64,000 nt of DNA from Herpetosiphon aurantiacus DSM 785 (GTDB lineage: Bacteria > Chloroflexota > Chloroflexia > Chloroflexales > Herpetosiphonaceae). Shown here piece by piece: positions 18,233 to 31,026 of the stretch; the first letter of the stretch is position 1; every line of letters begins with the position of its first letter. The notes under the pieces are model-generated. The model saw only the letters and a program-made list of their open reading frames with translations. It was not told where the DNA came from and searched no databases. Position numbers and translations under genes: made by a program. The stretch is taken from assembly GCA_000018565.1 (NCBI GenBank), contig CP000875.1, forward strand, positions 1,751,199-1,815,198, written 5' to 3'.

Positions 18233-19015
18233 TTACAAATCGGCACGAATCGCCCACAAATCGGGGAAGAATGGCTTGATCGTGCTGGCAAGATAGGCCG
18301 CACCGCTTGAACCACCAGTGCCTTGTTTCATGCCAATCGTGCGTTCCACCATTTTAACATGGCGATAGCGCCACTCCTGAAAGCCCTCGTCGAGGTCGAT
18401 CAACCGTTCGCAGAGGTTGCTGACCAAAGGATTTTGGCGATACACCGTGATCAAGATCGTTTGAATTGCGGGTGATGCTACAAGCGATTGGGTGACATCA
18501 CGCCCGATTTGCTCGCTGGGAATCGCATAGCCATTCAGCTGTAGATAGTGTAAAAAGCTATCCCACAGGCTTGGTTCTTGGTAGCGCTGTTCGAGCCGTT
18601 CATGGCTTGGTAATGCGGCAAAATGTTGCAAAATTGCTGGGCGTTTGTAGCCGAGCACAAACTCAATTTCGCGAAATTGCAATGATTGAAAACCGCTGGC
18701 CGATTCAAGCGAGCCACGAAAGGCATTGAATTGCAGGGGAGTCATGGTTTCCATCACATCGACTTGGGCCACGATAGTTTTGAGAATGGTCAAAATCCGG
18801 CGGATGCTTTGGTTGGCGCGGCCTGTATCGTTGGCTCGCAACAGATCGCACAAATAATCAAGTTCGTGCAAAATTTGCTTAAACCACAACTCATAAACCT
18901 GATGAATCACGATGAACAATAATTCATCATGTTCGGGGCCATGGCTGCGGGGCGTTTGTAAATTCAACAGTTCGTCAATTTTTAAATAACTAGCATAGGT
19001 TAAGGCCTGAGACAT
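18233..19015 (-). CDS. kynA: Tryptophan 2,3-dioxygenase
   Basis: A 260-residue heme enzyme that opens the indole ring of L-tryptophan to N-formylkynurenine, the first step of the kynurenine pathway. Family motifs are all present: the distal-pocket helix HDELLFIVIHQVYELWFKQ with the active-site His, the RGSLESASGFQSLQFREIE segment, and the heme-ligand/substrate region YRHVKMVERTIGMK followed by GTGGSSG. The length is close to the usual 260-280. AAGGAG precedes the ATG. No kynureninase or formamidase gene is adjacent, so the rest of the pathway must be elsewhere or absent. Confidence 0.95.
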   Translation of the reverse strand: MSQALTYASYLKIDELLNLQTPRSHGPEHDELLFIVIHQVYELWFKQILHELDYLCDLLRANDTGRANQSIRRILTILKTIVAQVDVMETMTPLQFNAFRGSLESASGFQSLQFREIEFVLGYKRPAILQHFAALPSHERLEQRYQEPSLWDSFLHYLQLNGYAIPSEQIGRDVTQSLVASPAIQTILITVYRQNPLVSNLCERLIDLDEGFQEWRYRHVKMVERTIGMKQGTGGSSGAAYLASTIKPFFPDLWAIRADL

Positions 19016-21347: not shown

Positions 21348-21465
21348 TCAATTCGTTCCTCCGTGGATAGAACCCAGTTTCATCCTCGAAAACAGCTATC
21401 CGACACTGCGCTAGGCGAACTTGTGGAACGGTGACCTGCTCACGGACAAATAAACAACGATAAAA

Positions 21466-21497
21466 AATCGGTATCGTTTCCGGAAACGATACCGATT
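21466..21497 (-). promoter_or_regulatory. 32-bp perfect palindromic operator
   Basis: A perfect inverted repeat of 16 bp per arm. Each half reads AATCGGTATCGTTTCC into the centre at 21481/21482. It overlaps the 3' side of the -10 box and covers the predicted start site of the secreted-protein gene. An extra half site (AACGATA) lies at 21456-21462. The shape suits a LacI-family or similar dimeric repressor; no such gene lies in the window. Confidence 0.8.
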
Positions 21498-21525
21498 ATA
21501 TTAATGGAATTTAAAGGTTTGTCAA
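21495..21525 (-). promoter_or_regulatory. Promoter of the trefoil/beta-helix gene
   Basis: Read on the minus strand, TTGACA (21525-21520) and TATAAT (21500-21495) are both perfect hexamers, separated by a 19-bp spacer that is longer than ideal. The start lies about 120-148 bp downstream and has GGAGG before the ATG. Confidence 0.75.
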
Positions 21526-24850: not shown

Positions 24851-24898
24851 TTCCCGCACCCCAACCCCTCTCCCGTTGAACGGGAGAGGGGCTTTTCG
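24851..24898. repeat. Dispersed palindromic repeat, also terminator-like
   Basis: A CACCCCAACCCC block runs into a 12-bp stem (24865-24876 with 24880-24891) closed by a TGA loop and followed by CTTTT. The same CACCCCA-CCCCT module with a GC-rich hairpin recurs inverted at 59098-59140. It probably also terminates the 23946 gene. Confidence 0.7.
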
Positions 24899-25133: not shown

Positions 25134-26675
25134 ATGCTGTCGCTGACGACTGCTCAACGTGATCTGTTGTATCTGTTGCTTACCACTGAGACTCCAATCG
25201 GGGCTGCGGCACTCGGTCAGTGTCTCCATCTCACACCACGCCAAGTTTCCTATAGTTTACGGAGTATTAAGCTGTGGTTGGCTCGTCGCCATGCCAGTTT
25301 GCGCCAAGTGCCTGGGGTTGGCATGCAGCTGATCTGCTCGGCCCAGCAACGTGAACGGCTTTATGCTGAGCTAGAATCGCATGCCAAATTTCAATTAATT
25401 CTCACGCCCGAACAACGTGGTCAGCTTTTGGCCTTAGTGCTGTTGATTACCCCCGAACCCTTGACCCTCAACCAACTCCAGCAAGATTTAGCAGTTGCTC
25501 GCACGACGGTGCTTAAAGATCTCGATGTCATGGAGATTTGGTTGGCCAGTTTTGGTTTGCAAGTGGTGCGGCGACAACATCGCGGCTGCTGGATCGAAGG
25601 CGCTGAGTTGGCGAAACGCCAAGCCTTGGCAGCCTTGTTATGGGGCGATGTGCCCTTTAGTTTGCCAATTATCAGCGTGCAAGCGGGCCTTGGCTTTGAT
25701 TTTGTGTTGCAACAAGATGCAGCCCTCTTACCGATTATTCAACGGGTCAATAGCTTTTTGCAGGAGCTTGATCTGCCTAAAGCCCAACAGCAGGCGATCT
25801 GGGCCGAAGCTGCCTTGAATGCGCGGTTTAGCGATCAGGCAATTAGTTTGCTGGCTTTGGCCTTGGCTTTGCAACAGCAACGGATCAATGCTCAACAGTA
25901 TCTCCATTGGCATCCCGAAACATTACATTGGCTGGAACAGCAGTTGGTTTGGTCAGTTGCTACGCAATTTGAGCAACATTATGGTTTGCAGGCCAGTGCA
26001 ACGATCGATCTTGCTGAAATTGCTGGTGTAGCCTTGCAATTGGTGTGTGCTGCCCGCGAACGGCCATGGCCCAATCAGCATGAGACCGATCACGTAACCG
26101 TTCGGTTGATCAATGCACTGATTGATTTGATTGCCAGTAGCTACGATGTCGCAGAGCTTGCCAACGATCAGCTTTTGGGTGATGGTTTGGCCGCCTTGAT
26201 TCCGCCAGCCTGCAATCGCCAGCGCTTTGGTTTGTGGATTCCGACCCATCAATCCAGCGAAACGCAGAGTGAACGTTATGCAACTGAGCGGCGGGTGGCC
26301 GATTTAATTGATCGCAAGCTGCTGGCAACGATTGGTGTAGCTTTGCCGATTGATGCCCGTGATGAGCTGATTTTGTTGTTGCGGGCAGCGGTGGTGCGGG
26401 CGCGGCCTGTGCAAACCCGCAATATTCTGGTGGTTTGCCCGAGCGGCATGGCCACAACTCAACTGTTGGTAGCACGGCTCAAAGCACGGTTTCCCAAACT
26501 GGGTATTTTTGAAGTGCTCTCGATGCGCGAGCTTTCGGCAGAACGTTTAGCCAATGCCGATTTGGTGATTACGACTGCGCCTTTAGCATTGGCTAGTGTG
26601 CCAATTGATGTCATCCAAGTGCATCCAATGCTGCACCCAGAAGATATTGCGGCGCTGACCCAGTGGATGGTTTAG
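25134..26675 (+). CDS. mtlR: MtlR-type PRD/EIIB-like transcriptional activator of the mannitol operon
   Basis: A 513-residue regulator. It has an N-terminal HTH (about 1-60; GAAALGQCLHLTPRQVSYSL), a second winged helix (about 90-150; LNQLQQDLAVARTTVLKDL), and a PTS regulation domain region in the middle. The EIIB(Gat)-like domain (about 430-510) has the phosphorylatable Cys in VVCPSGMATTQLLVARL. The terminal EIIA domain of classical MtlR is missing, so the protein is shorter than the ~700-residue Bacillus form. Phosphorylation by the PTS would tune its activity, as known for MtlR. The mtlA operon follows directly, and both carry the same promoter module, which argues for autoregulation. Confidence 0.85.
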   Translation: MLSLTTAQRDLLYLLLTTETPIGAAALGQCLHLTPRQVSYSLRSIKLWLARRHASLRQVPGVGMQLICSAQQRERLYAELESHAKFQLILTPEQRGQLLALVLLITPEPLTLNQLQQDLAVARTTVLKDLDVMEIWLASFGLQVVRRQHRGCWIEGAELAKRQALAALLWGDVPFSLPIISVQAGLGFDFVLQQDAALLPIIQRVNSFLQELDLPKAQQQAIWAEAALNARFSDQAISLLALALALQQQRINAQQYLHWHPETLHWLEQQLVWSVATQFEQHYGLQASATIDLAEIAGVALQLVCAARERPWPNQHETDHVTVRLINALIDLIASSYDVAELANDQLLGDGLAALIPPACNRQRFGLWIPTHQSSETQSERYATERRVADLIDRKLLATIGVALPIDARDELILLLRAAVVRARPVQTRNILVVCPSGMATTQLLVARLKARFPKLGIFEVLSMRELSAERLANADLVITTAPLALASVPIDVIQVHPMLHPEDIAALTQWMV

Positions 26676-26680
26676 CCTGC

Positions 26681-26785
26681 TAAATCATCGCATTTTGTCG
26701 TAATAGCGCAACCAAAAGACAGATTAATAAAATGGGTTTTATGGCTTGACAATGGCCTAAAACGCTTGTACGTTAATAGTACACA
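26681..26785 (+). promoter_or_regulatory. mtlA promoter/operator module (copy B)
   Basis: TTGACA at 26746-26751 lies in the same GCTTGACAATGG ... CTAAAACGC context as copy A; 21 of the 22 bases in this core are identical. The upstream TAAATCATC and GATTAATAAA blocks are also shared. It is the likely binding region for MtlR. Confidence 0.7.
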
Positions 26786-27028
26786 AACACATCGAAACCT
26801 CTGTCCATCCGGAGCTATCTCCCTCGATTGACAACCTACGATAGGATCGTCGGGCTGGTGTAGGGCACTGCCAGAACACCACGGCGAACCTCTTCTTAGC
26901 GGTGTGTGCGATACCGTGGGTGACTGTTGCGCAGATAACAACCCGGGCGTTAGCTGACGAACCACCATTCTGAATCCACGGGGCAATCAACGACGATTAA
27001 CAATGACTTCAAAGGAGAAACGCCCATC
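26786..27028 (+). other. Long untranslated leader of mtlA
   Basis: About 240 bases separate the promoter module from mtlA, with no supported gene on either strand. The stretch is GC-rich and contains short inverted segments such as GGTGT/ACACC around 26859-26881. I cannot match it to a known riboswitch. AAAGGAG (27011-27017) is the ribosome binding site of mtlA. Confidence 0.5.
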
Positions 27029-28099
27029 ATGCGACAGCATATTCAGCGCTTCGGCAGCTTCTTGGCTGCAATGGTTGTTCCCAATATCGGTGCGTTCATC
27101 GCTTGGGGCTTAATCACCGCTCTGTTCATCCCAACTGGTTGGATTCCGAACGAAACTTTTGCCAAGCTCGTTGGCCCAATGATTACTTACCTTTTGCCCA
27201 CCTTGATTGGTTATACTGGCGGTAAGATGATTCACGATACCCGTGGCGGGGTGGTTGGGGCCGCCGCAACCATGGGTGTAATCGTCGGAGCCGATATTCC
27301 AATGTTTATCGGGGCCATGGTCATGGGGCCACTTGGCGGCTACCTGATGAAGAAAATTGACGAATTCCTCGAAGATCGCGTGCCAACTGGCTTTGAAATG
27401 TTGGTCAATAACTTCTCGGCAGGCTTCCTTGTGATGGGCTTGGTGCTATTGGCGAATGCGGCGATTGGCCCTGTTGTCCAAGTGTTAAGTGAGGGCTTAG
27501 GCTCTGGCGTTCAATTCCTGATCGACTCACGCTTGTTGCCTGTGGCCGATATTATTATTGAACCAGCCAAAGTACTCTTCCTCAATAACGCCATCAATCA
27601 CGGGATTCTTGGCCCCTTAGGCGTGGCTGAAGTTGGCGAAAATGGTAAAGCGATTCACTTTTTGCTCGAAAGTAACCCCGGCCCTGGCTTAGGCTTGCTC
27701 TTGGCCTTCTGGTTTGCTGGCAAAGGCAACCTCAAAGAATCAGCACCAGGTGCTGCAGTAATTCACTTCCTCGGTGGGATTCACGAAATCTATTTCCCCT
27801 ACATTTTGGCTCGTCCTGTGATGATTGTGGCAATGTGGGCTGGCGGGATCTTAGCCGACCTGTGGTTTGTGATTTTTGATGCAGGTTTGGTTGCTACGCC
27901 ATCACCTGGCTCGATCTTTGCCTACTTGGCGGTTATTCCACGTGGCGGTCACTTTGCGGTCTTAGGTGGGGTTTTCGTCGGGATTGTTGGCTCGTTTGTG
28001 GCTGGCTCGATGTTGCTCAAACTCTTCCCGGGCGAAGAAACTGTGGCAGATGAGCAAACCAGTTCAGAAATGACTGGCACCGCTGCAACCGCCCACTAA
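27029..28099 (+). CDS. mtlA: PTS mannitol transporter subunit IIC
   Basis: A 356-residue integral membrane EIIC. It starts with the amphipathic helix [20 protein letters not shown], and the family motif [15 protein letters not shown] occurs at about 250-264, with [13 protein letters not shown] before it. Eight or more membrane spans are evident. Unlike E. coli MtlA it holds only the C domain; IIB and IIA are separate downstream genes, as in several Gram-positives. It translocates and phosphorylates mannitol (or a related hexitol) in concert with IIB. Confidence 0.93.
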
Positions 28100-28132
28100 T
28101 TGCGCTTGAATCTCAACTGAAGGAGGTATGTC

Positions 28133-28453
28133 ATGGCTCAATCAATTGCCGCTGCCGATGTTACAACGATTGTGTTTGCCTGTGAAGCAGGCATTGGCTC
28201 AAGTTTTATGGGTGTTACGGCACTCAAAAAGAAACTCAAACAAGCCAATTTGAGCATCACGGTGGTGCATAAATCGGTGCGCTCGTTGCCAACCGATGCC
28301 AAGCTGGTGTTGGTGCACAAAGGCTTAGCCGATTTTGCGCGGAAGCAAGCGCCTAATGCCGTCGTGATTGCCTTTACCCAATTCCTCAATGATCCTGTGT
28401 TTGATCAAGTGGTTCAAAGCTTGCAGGATGGCACTGATCTTGTGGAGGCCTAA
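28133..28453 (+). CDS. mtlB: PTS mannitol-type subunit IIB
   Basis: A 106-residue cytoplasmic phosphocarrier. The P-loop IVFACEAGIGSSFMG carries the phosphocysteine (about residue 17), followed by VTALKKKLKQA. The sequence is typical of IIB of the mannitol class. AAGGAGG lies upstream. It accepts phosphate from IIA and passes it to the sugar bound by IIC. The gap to mtlA is 33 bp. Confidence 0.92.
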   Translation: MAQSIAAADVTTIVFACEAGIGSSFMGVTALKKKLKQANLSITVVHKSVRSLPTDAKLVLVHKGLADFARKQAPNAVVIAFTQFLNDPVFDQVVQSLQDGTDLVEA

Positions 28454-28454
28454 A

Positions 28455-28928
28455 ATGGCAATCTTATCGAGCGAAACGATTCGGCTAGGAGCTAGCGCTG
28501 CTAGCAAACAAGAGGCGATTCAGCAGGCCGGAGCGTTGTTAGTTGCCAGTGGTTGTGTCGCTGCCAACTATGTCGATGGTATGTTGAAACGCGAACAAGT
28601 TATCTCAACCTATCTGGGCAATGGGGTCGCAATTCCCCATGGTCAGCACGAAAATATGGCCGATGTGATTCGCACTGGCATTGCTGTGGTGCAGTTTCCC
28701 GCTGGCGTTGAGTGGGAGCCAGGCGAATTGGCCTATTTGGTGATTGGGATTGCTGCCAACGCCGATGAGCATGTGGGTGTGTTAGCAAATTTGGCCGAAG
28801 TGATCGAGGATGAGGCGATTGTGCAGCAATTGGCTCAAACTAGCGATCCATCGCAGATTCTTGAGCAATTAGGGCGAGCGCGTGAGGAAGAAGCCTACGA
28901 CGAGGAAAGGCATCATGCAGGAGCTTGA
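28455..28928 (+). CDS. mtlF: PTS mannitol-type subunit IIA
   Basis: A 157-residue EIIA of the mannitol/fructose type. Phospho-His lies in GNGVAIPHGQHEN (about residue 60), preceded by YVDGMLKREQVISTYLG. The ATG at 28455 is one base after the IIB stop and follows TGGAGG. The tail (about 140-157) is acidic and overlaps the start of the HPr-EI gene by 14 bp, so translation is coupled. Confidence 0.92.
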   Translation: MAILSSETIRLGASAASKQEAIQQAGALLVASGCVAANYVDGMLKREQVISTYLGNGVAIPHGQHENMADVIRTGIAVVQFPAGVEWEPGELAYLVIGIAANADEHVGVLANLAEVIEDEAIVQQLAQTSDPSQILEQLGRAREEEAYDEERHHAGA

Positions 28929-31026
28929 TTTGGTCATTCATAACTCGGCAGGCCTGCATGCGCGGCCTGCCCGAGTCTTAGTTGACCTTGCAAAACAATT
29001 CAAATCGACGATTTCGATTCGTGCTGGCGGCAAGCGGGTCAATGCCAAAAGCATGATCGCGCTGTTGACCCTCGGCGTAGTCTGTGGTCAGGCGATCCAA
29101 ATCGAGATTAACGGCGAAGATGAAGCCGCCGCTGCCGAGGCGATTACAACTGCGGTGCACGAAGGTTTGGGCGAAGGTCATGGCACACCAGCCGCCAATA
29201 GCGTTAATGATGCTTTGGTTGCGGCTCGCAATGGCCATGCCAATCTCAATGGCCATGCCAAGCTTGAAACCACCGTTGCTGTGGCCGAACCGCCGCCTGC
29301 GCCAGCCCCAACTCGCGCTGAGCCACTCAAAGCTGGCGCGATCATCCAAGGGATTGCTGGCGCACCTGGCATTGCGGTTGGCACAATTTTGCGCTACGAA
29401 CGTGCGCGAATCGAAATTAGCCACCGATTTAGTGGGGTGGATAACGAACTCCAGCGTTTGCAAGCGGCCTTGACCACCGCCCAACAGCAATTGGTGGCGC
29501 TGCGCGAACAGGTATTGTTACGGGCTGATGCCAGCGAAGCCGCCATTTTTGATGTTCACCGCGATATTTTGGCCGATCCTGCCTTGCTTGAGGCTGTGCA
29601 TGGCTCAATTGGTGCTGGGCAAGGGGCCGAAGTCGCTTGGCAACAGGTGATCAATCAACAGGCTAACGCGATTGCTCAACTCAACGATGCCCTACTTGCC
29701 GAGCGTTCTAGCGATATTCGTGATGTAGGCGATCGGGTGCTGCGCCTTTTGGTGGGAGCCGAAGCTTCGACGCTTGATGCCCACTGGGCAAAGGCCAATC
29801 AGCCGATGATTGTCGTGGCCTATGATCTGACACCTTCAGAAACCGCTGCTTTTGATCCAGCCAAAGTGCTGGGTTTTTGCACAGCGGTAGGTGGCCCAAA
29901 TGCCCACACCGCGATTTTGGCTCGTGCCTTGGGTTTACCAGCGGTGATTAGTGCTGGCCCAAGCGTCCTTGAACTTGCCACCGGAACCGAAGTAATTCTC
30001 GATGGTACGGCTGGCACCTTGTTGATCTGCCCAGCGCCTGAAGCCATTGTGGCGGCCAAAACTGCCCAGCAGCGCGAGCGTGAGCATCAAGCATGGGCTA
30101 TGCGCAGCGCTAACGAGCCAGCCACAACCGTTGATGGTCAGCATATCGAAGTGGTTGCTAACATTGGTGGCCTGAGCGAAGCTCAGCAAGCCACAACTTT
30201 AGGTGCTGATGGGGTGGGTTTGTTGCGCACCGAATTTTTGTTCTTGGAGCGCACCCAAGCCCCAACCGAAGATGAGCAGTTTGCAACCTACCGCGAAATT
30301 GCCCAAGCCATGGGCGATGCCCCAGTGATTGTGCGCACCTTGGATATTGGCGGCGACAAGCCACTGCCCTATCTGGCCTTGCCTGCTGAAGAAAACCCAT
30401 TTTTGGGCGAACGTGGCATTCGCTTGTGCCTAGCACACCCTGAATTGCTACAAACCCAATTACGGGCAATTTTACGTGCTGCCAGCTTTGGCCGCTTGCG
30501 AATTATGTTCCCAATGATTGCCGATGCTGGTGAGTTACGCGCTGCCAAAGCCGAAATCGAGCGGATTCGCAACGAATTGCAAGTAGCTCCAATCGAAATC
30601 GGGATTATGATCGAAGTGCCTTCAGCCGCTTTGATGACCGATATTTTGGCGGCTGAAGTTGATTTCTTCTCAATTGGCACCAACGACCTGACCCAATACA
30701 CCTTAGCTATGGATCGGACGCACCCGACGCTGGCGGCTCAAGCCGATGGTTTGCATCCAGCGGTGTTGCGCCTGATTGCTCGAACGGTTGAGGCGGCCCA
30801 TGCTGCTGGCAAATGGGTCGGAGTTTGCGGCGAGTTGGGCGCTGATCCGCAAGCTGTGCCAATTTTGGTGGGCCTTGGGGTTGATGAACTCAGCGTCAGC
30901 GTGCCCGCCATTCCAACTGTTAAAGCCCAAATCCGGGCATTGAACTTTGCTCAGTGCCAAACATCTGCTCGGCGGGCGTTGGTCTGTGCCACTGCCGCCG
31001 AAGTACGCCAAGGAGCGTTCGACTAA
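28915..31026 (+). CDS. HPr-Enzyme I fusion (PEP:sugar phosphotransferase)
   Basis: A 703-residue fusion. HPr (about 1-88) has phospho-His in SAGLHARPARVLVDLA and the regulatory Ser region NAKSMIALLTLG. An Ala/Pro linker (about 115-140) leads to Enzyme I. EI has the phospho-His in GGPNAHTAILARALG (the usual form is GGRTSHTA), the PEP-binding GVGLLRTEFLFLERT, the EVPSAALM strand and SIGTNDLTQYTLAMDR. The terminal catalytic loop is CGELGADP. It supplies phosphate from PEP to IIA. Carrying general PTS proteins inside the sugar operon implies a self-contained, dedicated phosphorelay. Confidence 0.93.
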   Translation: MQELDLVIHNSAGLHARPARVLVDLAKQFKSTISIRAGGKRVNAKSMIALLTLGVVCGQAIQIEINGEDEAAAAEAITTAVHEGLGEGHGTPAANSVNDALVAARNGHANLNGHAKLETTVAVAEPPPAPAPTRAEPLKAGAIIQGIAGAPGIAVGTILRYERARIEISHRFSGVDNELQRLQAALTTAQQQLVALREQVLLRADASEAAIFDVHRDILADPALLEAVHGSIGAGQGAEVAWQQVINQQANAIAQLNDALLAERSSDIRDVGDRVLRLLVGAEASTLDAHWAKANQPMIVVAYDLTPSETAAFDPAKVLGFCTAVGGPNAHTAILARALGLPAVISAGPSVLELATGTEVILDGTAGTLLICPAPEAIVAAKTAQQREREHQAWAMRSANEPATTVDGQHIEVVANIGGLSEAQQATTLGADGVGLLRTEFLFLERTQAPTEDEQFATYREIAQAMGDAPVIVRTLDIGGDKPLPYLALPAEENPFLGERGIRLCLAHPELLQTQLRAILRAASFGRLRIMFPMIADAGELRAAKAEIERIRNELQVAPIEIGIMIEVPSAALMTDILAAEVDFFSIGTNDLTQYTLAMDRTHPTLAAQADGLHPAVLRLIARTVEAAHAAGKWVGVCGELGADPQAVPILVGLGVDELSVSVPAIPTVKAQIRALNFAQCQTSARRALVCATAAEVRQGAFD

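Follow-up and report, generated by a model that had tools for sequence, protein, structure and literature searches.

A perfect 32-bp palindrome at a beta-1,3-glucanase promoter of Herpetosiphon aurantiacus is probably a pair of abutting LacI-type operators

What is the role of a long perfect palindrome placed beside a strong promoter of a secreted enzyme gene? The question is raised by a locus of Herpetosiphon aurantiacus DSM 785 within the 64,000-nt stretch of DNA that was analysed (the window; C1:1751199-1815198). An earlier note, made from the letters of this DNA, had described a 16+16-bp perfect palindrome there as one operator of a LacI-type or similar factor. The palindrome is real and is the longest of the whole window; 20 base-composition shuffles of the window gave chance arms of at most 9 bp, compared with the 16 bp found (Table 1). 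On sequence evidence, we consider it very likely that the palindrome is an adjoining pair of 12-bp operators of an autoregulated LacI-family repressor, which would be released by a product of beta-1,3-glucan.

Table 1. Positions of the palindrome, its promoter, the regulated gene and the proposed regulator gene (window coordinates, except where a contig is given)
Feature	Position	Strand	Remark
Perfect palindrome, 32 bp, AATCGGTATCGTTTCCGGAAACGATACCGATT	21466-21497	.	16+16 arms, no loop
24-bp core of palindrome, GGTATCGTTTCCGGAAACGATACC	21470-21493	.	identical in 12/12 copies, six congeneric genomes
Putative promoter-proximal LacI-type operator unit, 12 bp	21482-21493	minus	reads GGTATC/GTTTCC on minus strand
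Putative promoter-distal LacI-type operator unit, 12 bp	21470-21481	minus	reads GGAAAC/GATACC on minus strand
Claimed extra half site AACGATA	about 21456-21462	minus	unconserved
-35 box TTGACA	21520-21525	minus	perfect; invariant in six genomes
-10 box TAATAT	21498-21503	minus	16 bp from -35 box; invariant in six species
TATAAT of the earlier note	21495-21500	minus	19-bp spacer to TTGACA
Regulated gene: secreted GH55 exo-beta-1,3-glucanase, 734 aa	19143-21347	minus	N-terminal CBM92-like beta-trefoil
Proposed regulator, LacI family, 339 aa	C1:2058317-2059333		287 kb from window palindrome

The perfect TTGACA claimed for this promoter was found, but the -10 box had to be reassigned. A perfect TATAAT does exist, 19 bp from TTGACA (Table 1), but four of the six species have TATAGT in its place. 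Both a promoter scan and the six-species comparison point to TAATAT, which is invariant, has a 16-bp spacer and is the better -10 box. TAATAT abuts the palindrome without overlapping it; with TAATAT as the -10 box, transcription is expected to start near 21491, within the palindrome. The same -10/-35 geometry is seen at the promoters of the GH5 and LacI genes described below. The extra half site claimed further downstream is kept in G001 alone and is absent from the other four congeners; it is probably a chance match.

Residues 188-733 of the GH55 protein match entries 4pew and 4tz1 (E 4e-174), which are SacteLam55A, a GH55 exo-beta-1,3-glucanase (PMC10637969). Of the active-site residues of SacteLam55A listed in that paper, Thr149, Phe152, Gln174, Trp444 and Trp446 were all found in the window protein at an offset of 128, as were the equivalents of Asp449, Glu480, His481, Glu502 and Tyr505 (ten positions in total); an equivalent of Ser198 was not placed. 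Homology and active-site residues thus agree in identifying a GH55 exo-beta-1,3-glucanase. The catalytic part is common to the two enzymes, whereas the N-terminal CBM92-like beta-trefoil belongs to the window enzyme and matches the CBM92 structures 7zoi (CpCBM92A) and 7zoh. Members of the CBM92 family bind beta-glucans, with beta-1,6-linked ones preferred (PMC11039641). Directly downstream of the GH55 gene, on the same strand, lies a tryptophan 2,3-dioxygenase-like gene (window 18233-19015).

An exact search of the genome (6,785,430 bases, three contigs) placed GGTATCGTTTCC at exactly three loci: the window, C1:2761935-2761958 and C1:2059366, the last within a LacI-family gene's promoter. The copy at C1:2761935-2761958 is again a perfect 24-bp double, upstream of a GH5 gene. 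Each of the six genomes of the genus carries the 24-mer exactly twice, without a mismatch in any of the 12 copies, and always between the promoter and the start of either a GH55 orthologue or a GH5 glucanase gene. The core is 100% identical while its ungapped flanks show a mean likeness of 49% and 54%, which indicates a phylogenetic footprint and not a mobile repeat. A dispersed repeat found at many unrelated positions, the outcome that the earlier note had named as fatal to its own reading, was rejected on the same grounds, with two exact copies per genome at a fixed gene pair. Degenerate patterns served for genome searches beyond exact matches. When mismatches to the 14-mer are allowed, most of the additional genomic matches look like chance, and a reversed control pattern yields more matches; the exception is a double site at a GH3 gene. 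Weak double sites (2-3 mismatches) were also observed in G002, G004 and G005, between an amylosucrase-like gene and a secreted-protein gene.

Consistent with the claim that the factor is absent from the window, none of the 12 LacI genes of the genome lies within it. The proposed regulator combines a LacI helix-turn-helix domain (PF00356, 1e-18) with a periplasmic-binding-like sugar domain (PF13377, 1e-40), and its nearest solved structures are CcpA and PurR. It reached no named NCBIfam equivalog cut-off (CytR 217.5 against 436 bits, RbsR 217.7 against 382, CcpA 183.9 against 442). In all six species GGTATCGTTTCC lies 33-44 bp before the start of the LacI gene, in its promoter. In three species this promoter consists of TTGACA-16-TATCAT and then GATATCGTTTCC-GGTATCGTTTCC; in G002, G004 and G005 the first unit has decayed and GGTATCGTTTCC is retained. 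Since the units at the regulator's own promoter are in direct orientation, and one intact unit is left in three species, the single 32-bp operator of the earlier note is not supported, and the palindrome is better described as two 12-bp LacI operators (GGWAWCGWTWCC) placed end to end. A site in the regulator's own promoter together with sites in carbohydrate-gene promoters, conserved in relatives, is what is expected of a LacI regulon. The other 11 LacI proteins of the genome appear to be weaker candidates, solely by virtue of genes that lack the site.

The 29 units that were collected give the consensus GGWAWC/GWTWCC (the slash marks the centre), by which the window palindrome resolves into two units back to back. 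The centre is CG in 24 units, A-3/T+3 is present in 27, and 57 of the 58 half sites have G at -6. Sites of LacI and CcpA proteins are even palindromes with a central CG (PMC4052901; PMC5483248), and the units fit this pattern, although they are imperfect palindromes and measure 12-14 bp against 16-22 bp in PMC4052901. Not one of the 29 units is perfectly palindromic, one half usually being GGTATC-like and the other GGAAAC- or GGTAAC-like; fully symmetric units would also satisfy the consensus. Within 250 bp before 15 orthologous LacI genes, neighbouring units were exactly 12 bp apart in 14/14 cases and stood three in a row in four promoters, against a chance expectation of about 0.08 units per shuffled upstream region. 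Three-unit arrays with the 12-bp period are seen at L079 (6074-6109), L078 (9163-9198), L095 and L096, in another family of the order.

Closely spaced LacI sites have been noted before. Ravcheev et al. (2014) described LacI sites upstream of 110 operons at a distance of about 13 bp; the overlap lies within the region of specific contacts, and the binding mode was left unexplained (PMC4052901). E. coli GntR at gntKU is such a case and, as here, has overlapping contact zones and conservation in orthologues (PMC4052901). Those sites are about 13 bp apart, possibly counted differently, whereas the distance here is exactly 12 bp throughout; furthermore, the units here form arrays of three, and abut as inverted or direct repeats. 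By the argument of Ravcheev et al., two dimers bound in the ordinary way to units with centres 12 bp apart would probably clash. Most likely the operator pair provides two alternative registers, which raises occupancy. It is doubtful that dimers fill two or three abutting 12-bp units cooperatively, with distortion of the DNA or a shared half site, and to our knowledge such a mode has not been seen in LacI, PurR or CcpA structures. If true, this mode would account for the overlapping LacI sites, a class known for some time.

We then compared the distribution of regulator and site over 158 genomes of the class, with an orthologue cut-off of E <= 1e-80. A LacI orthologue was present in 14 genomes and a double site (at most 2 mismatches) in 18. 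The double site occurred in 12 of the 14 genomes with the orthologue and in 6 of the 144 without it (Fisher p about 5e-12, to be taken as a guide only since the genomes are related), and the reversed control pattern had no match in any listed genome. Six genomes have a double site and no orthologue, and in five of them another LacI gene lies beside the site. The LacI orthologues of other families also have operator arrays in their own promoters, and some of them adjoin GH3, cellulase-like and GH1 genes and sugar transporters, as read from translations. The ancestral ligand may therefore be a broader beta-glucoside, and because such neighbours are of the cellulose or general beta-glucoside type, the regulator may be specific for beta-1,3-glucan in this genus alone. 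The sites, their conservation, the promoter positions, the regulator's own site, the co-occurrence and the enzyme families are all read directly from the DNA. Regulon, conservation and co-occurrence together lend good support to the earlier view that the promoter of this secreted carbohydrate enzyme carries an operator for a distant LacI-type regulator.

The GH5 target is a secreted protein with an F5/8-type C domain and a DUF7910/CBM92-like domain, and its catalytic part has glucan 1,3-beta-glucosidase A and an exo-beta-1,3-glucanase among its matches (8z2w, 1eqp). Divergent from it is a gene (L020 8226-9026) for a probably secreted protein of 266 aa with no Pfam match, which starts about 270 bp from the GH5 operator. 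Downstream of GH5 are chitinase genes of families GH18 and GH19; we do not claim them as co-transcribed members (the GH18-GH5 distance in G003 is 1.3 kb). In G000, G001 and G003 the degenerate 24-mer search added a double site, GTTAACGATACC-GGAAACGTTACC, which precedes a GH3 beta-glucosidase gene by about 150 bp. It was not found at the GH3 orthologues of G002, G004 and G005, so the GH3 link was gained or lost within the genus. Acting together, the GH55, GH5 and GH3 enzymes could plausibly degrade beta-1,3-glucan to glucose. A second LacI-type operator, GCAAGCGCTTRCAG, adjoins the GH3 promoter in all six species (L110-L115; G000:C1 about 4359620), just upstream of the tandem site where this is present (three species only), which suggests control by another LacI paralogue.

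From the placement of the sites and the gene content we infer binding by the LacI protein, repression rather than activation, a sugar inducer and, as the natural substrate, beta-1,3-glucan from fungi or other sources. Without inducer the repressor would cover the start of transcription, immediately after the -10 box, and block GH55; it would likewise block GH5, its own gene and, in three species, GH3. A breakdown product of beta-1,3-glucan, most likely laminaribiose or glucose to judge from the gene content, would release the repressor, and the secreted glucanases and the beta-glucosidase would be induced. The small regulon thus probably switches on enzymes that digest beta-1,3-glucan, for example in fungal cell walls.

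Other explanations of the palindrome were weighed against this repressor model. One LacI-type dimer, or another factor, could bind the 24-bp palindrome at its CC/GG centre, with the outer 12-mers as mere arms. All 16 unit junctions are indeed CCGG with a central CG, and the palindrome is perfect at both GH55 and GH5. However, lone intact units are found in the LacI promoters of G002, G004, G005 and G018, three-unit arrays exist, the units before the regulator gene are directly repeated, and the CC/GG centre lacks the A-3/T+3 so common at the unit centre; binding there is unlikely. It is far less probable still that the palindrome works as RNA, either as a terminator of the upstream HxlR-type gene or as an attenuator in the GH55 leader. 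The 16-bp stem is followed by TTTTTT on the minus strand, a terminator-like pattern, and folds at -18.1 kcal/mol (z -2.9). Terminators conserve pairing and not sequence; here 24 bases are letter-perfect, but the T run is absent from the GH5 copies and from the GH55 copies of three species. Furthermore, the directly oriented units of the LacI gene are unable to form this hairpin, and a promoter is placed between the upstream gene and the palindrome. An intrinsic terminator or attenuator was rejected on the conserved sequence, the unconserved T run and the direct-repeat version at the regulator gene.

The proposed LacI protein might also bind these sites but activate its targets, or serve as a mixed catabolite regulator like CcpA. 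Its closest solved relatives include CcpA, the unit resembles cre, and another LacI-type site stands beside the tandem in the GH3 promoter. The GH55, GH5 and LacI sites, however, lie directly downstream of the -10 box and over the start, which is a repressing position; the targets are few genome-wide, unlike those of a global regulator, and the CcpA equivalog cut-off was not reached. We give this alternative a low probability and retain the autoregulated repressor acting through paired 12-bp operators as the preferred model.

The closest known counterpart is GlyR3 of Clostridium thermocellum (celC-glyR3-licA), a LacI-type protein that represses its own gene and laminarin enzymes and is released by laminaribiose (PMC5483248). 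Both regulators are of the LacI type; the present one is predicted to share with GlyR3 the targeting of its own gene and of beta-1,3-glucan enzyme genes, and a CcpA-like operator with a central CG. GlyR3 is encoded in the operon that it regulates, whereas the regulator gene here is far from the enzyme targets, and the celC site is one 14-bp palindrome (TGAACGCGCGTACA) in place of tandem 12-bp units. The best reading is that the present regulator would work like GlyR3, to which it is likened by target enzymes and operator type only. The predicted control resembles that in the BglR regulon of Thermotoga maritima, with laminarinase, beta-glucosidase and laminaribiose transport, although BglR belongs to the ROK family and the regulator proposed here to the LacI family (PMC3750489). 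We found no paper in the open literature on a LacI/glucanase regulon of this genus; RegPrecise may already hold a prediction, since the 2014 LacI survey included a Chloroflexi group. The kind of regulon is ordinary, and the unusual and well-conserved feature is the fixed 12-bp stacking of its sites. The analysis provides a concrete candidate regulon for beta-1,3-glucan digestion in the genus, with regulator, operators and three enzyme genes, and a very clean, phylogenetically conserved example in which overlapping LacI operators keep a constant 12-bp spacing.

Two other features of the window were recorded. A PTS cluster (window 25134-31026) encodes a regulator with Mga/HTH and PTS IIB-like domains, an IIC-like membrane protein, small IIB- and IIA-like proteins and an HPr-enzyme I fusion. 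The second longest inverted repeat of the window, CCCCTCTCCCGTTGAACGGGAGAGGGG (13-bp arms, 24865-24891), may be a small dispersed element; similar C/T-rich stretches occur upstream of GH55 in G002 and G005.
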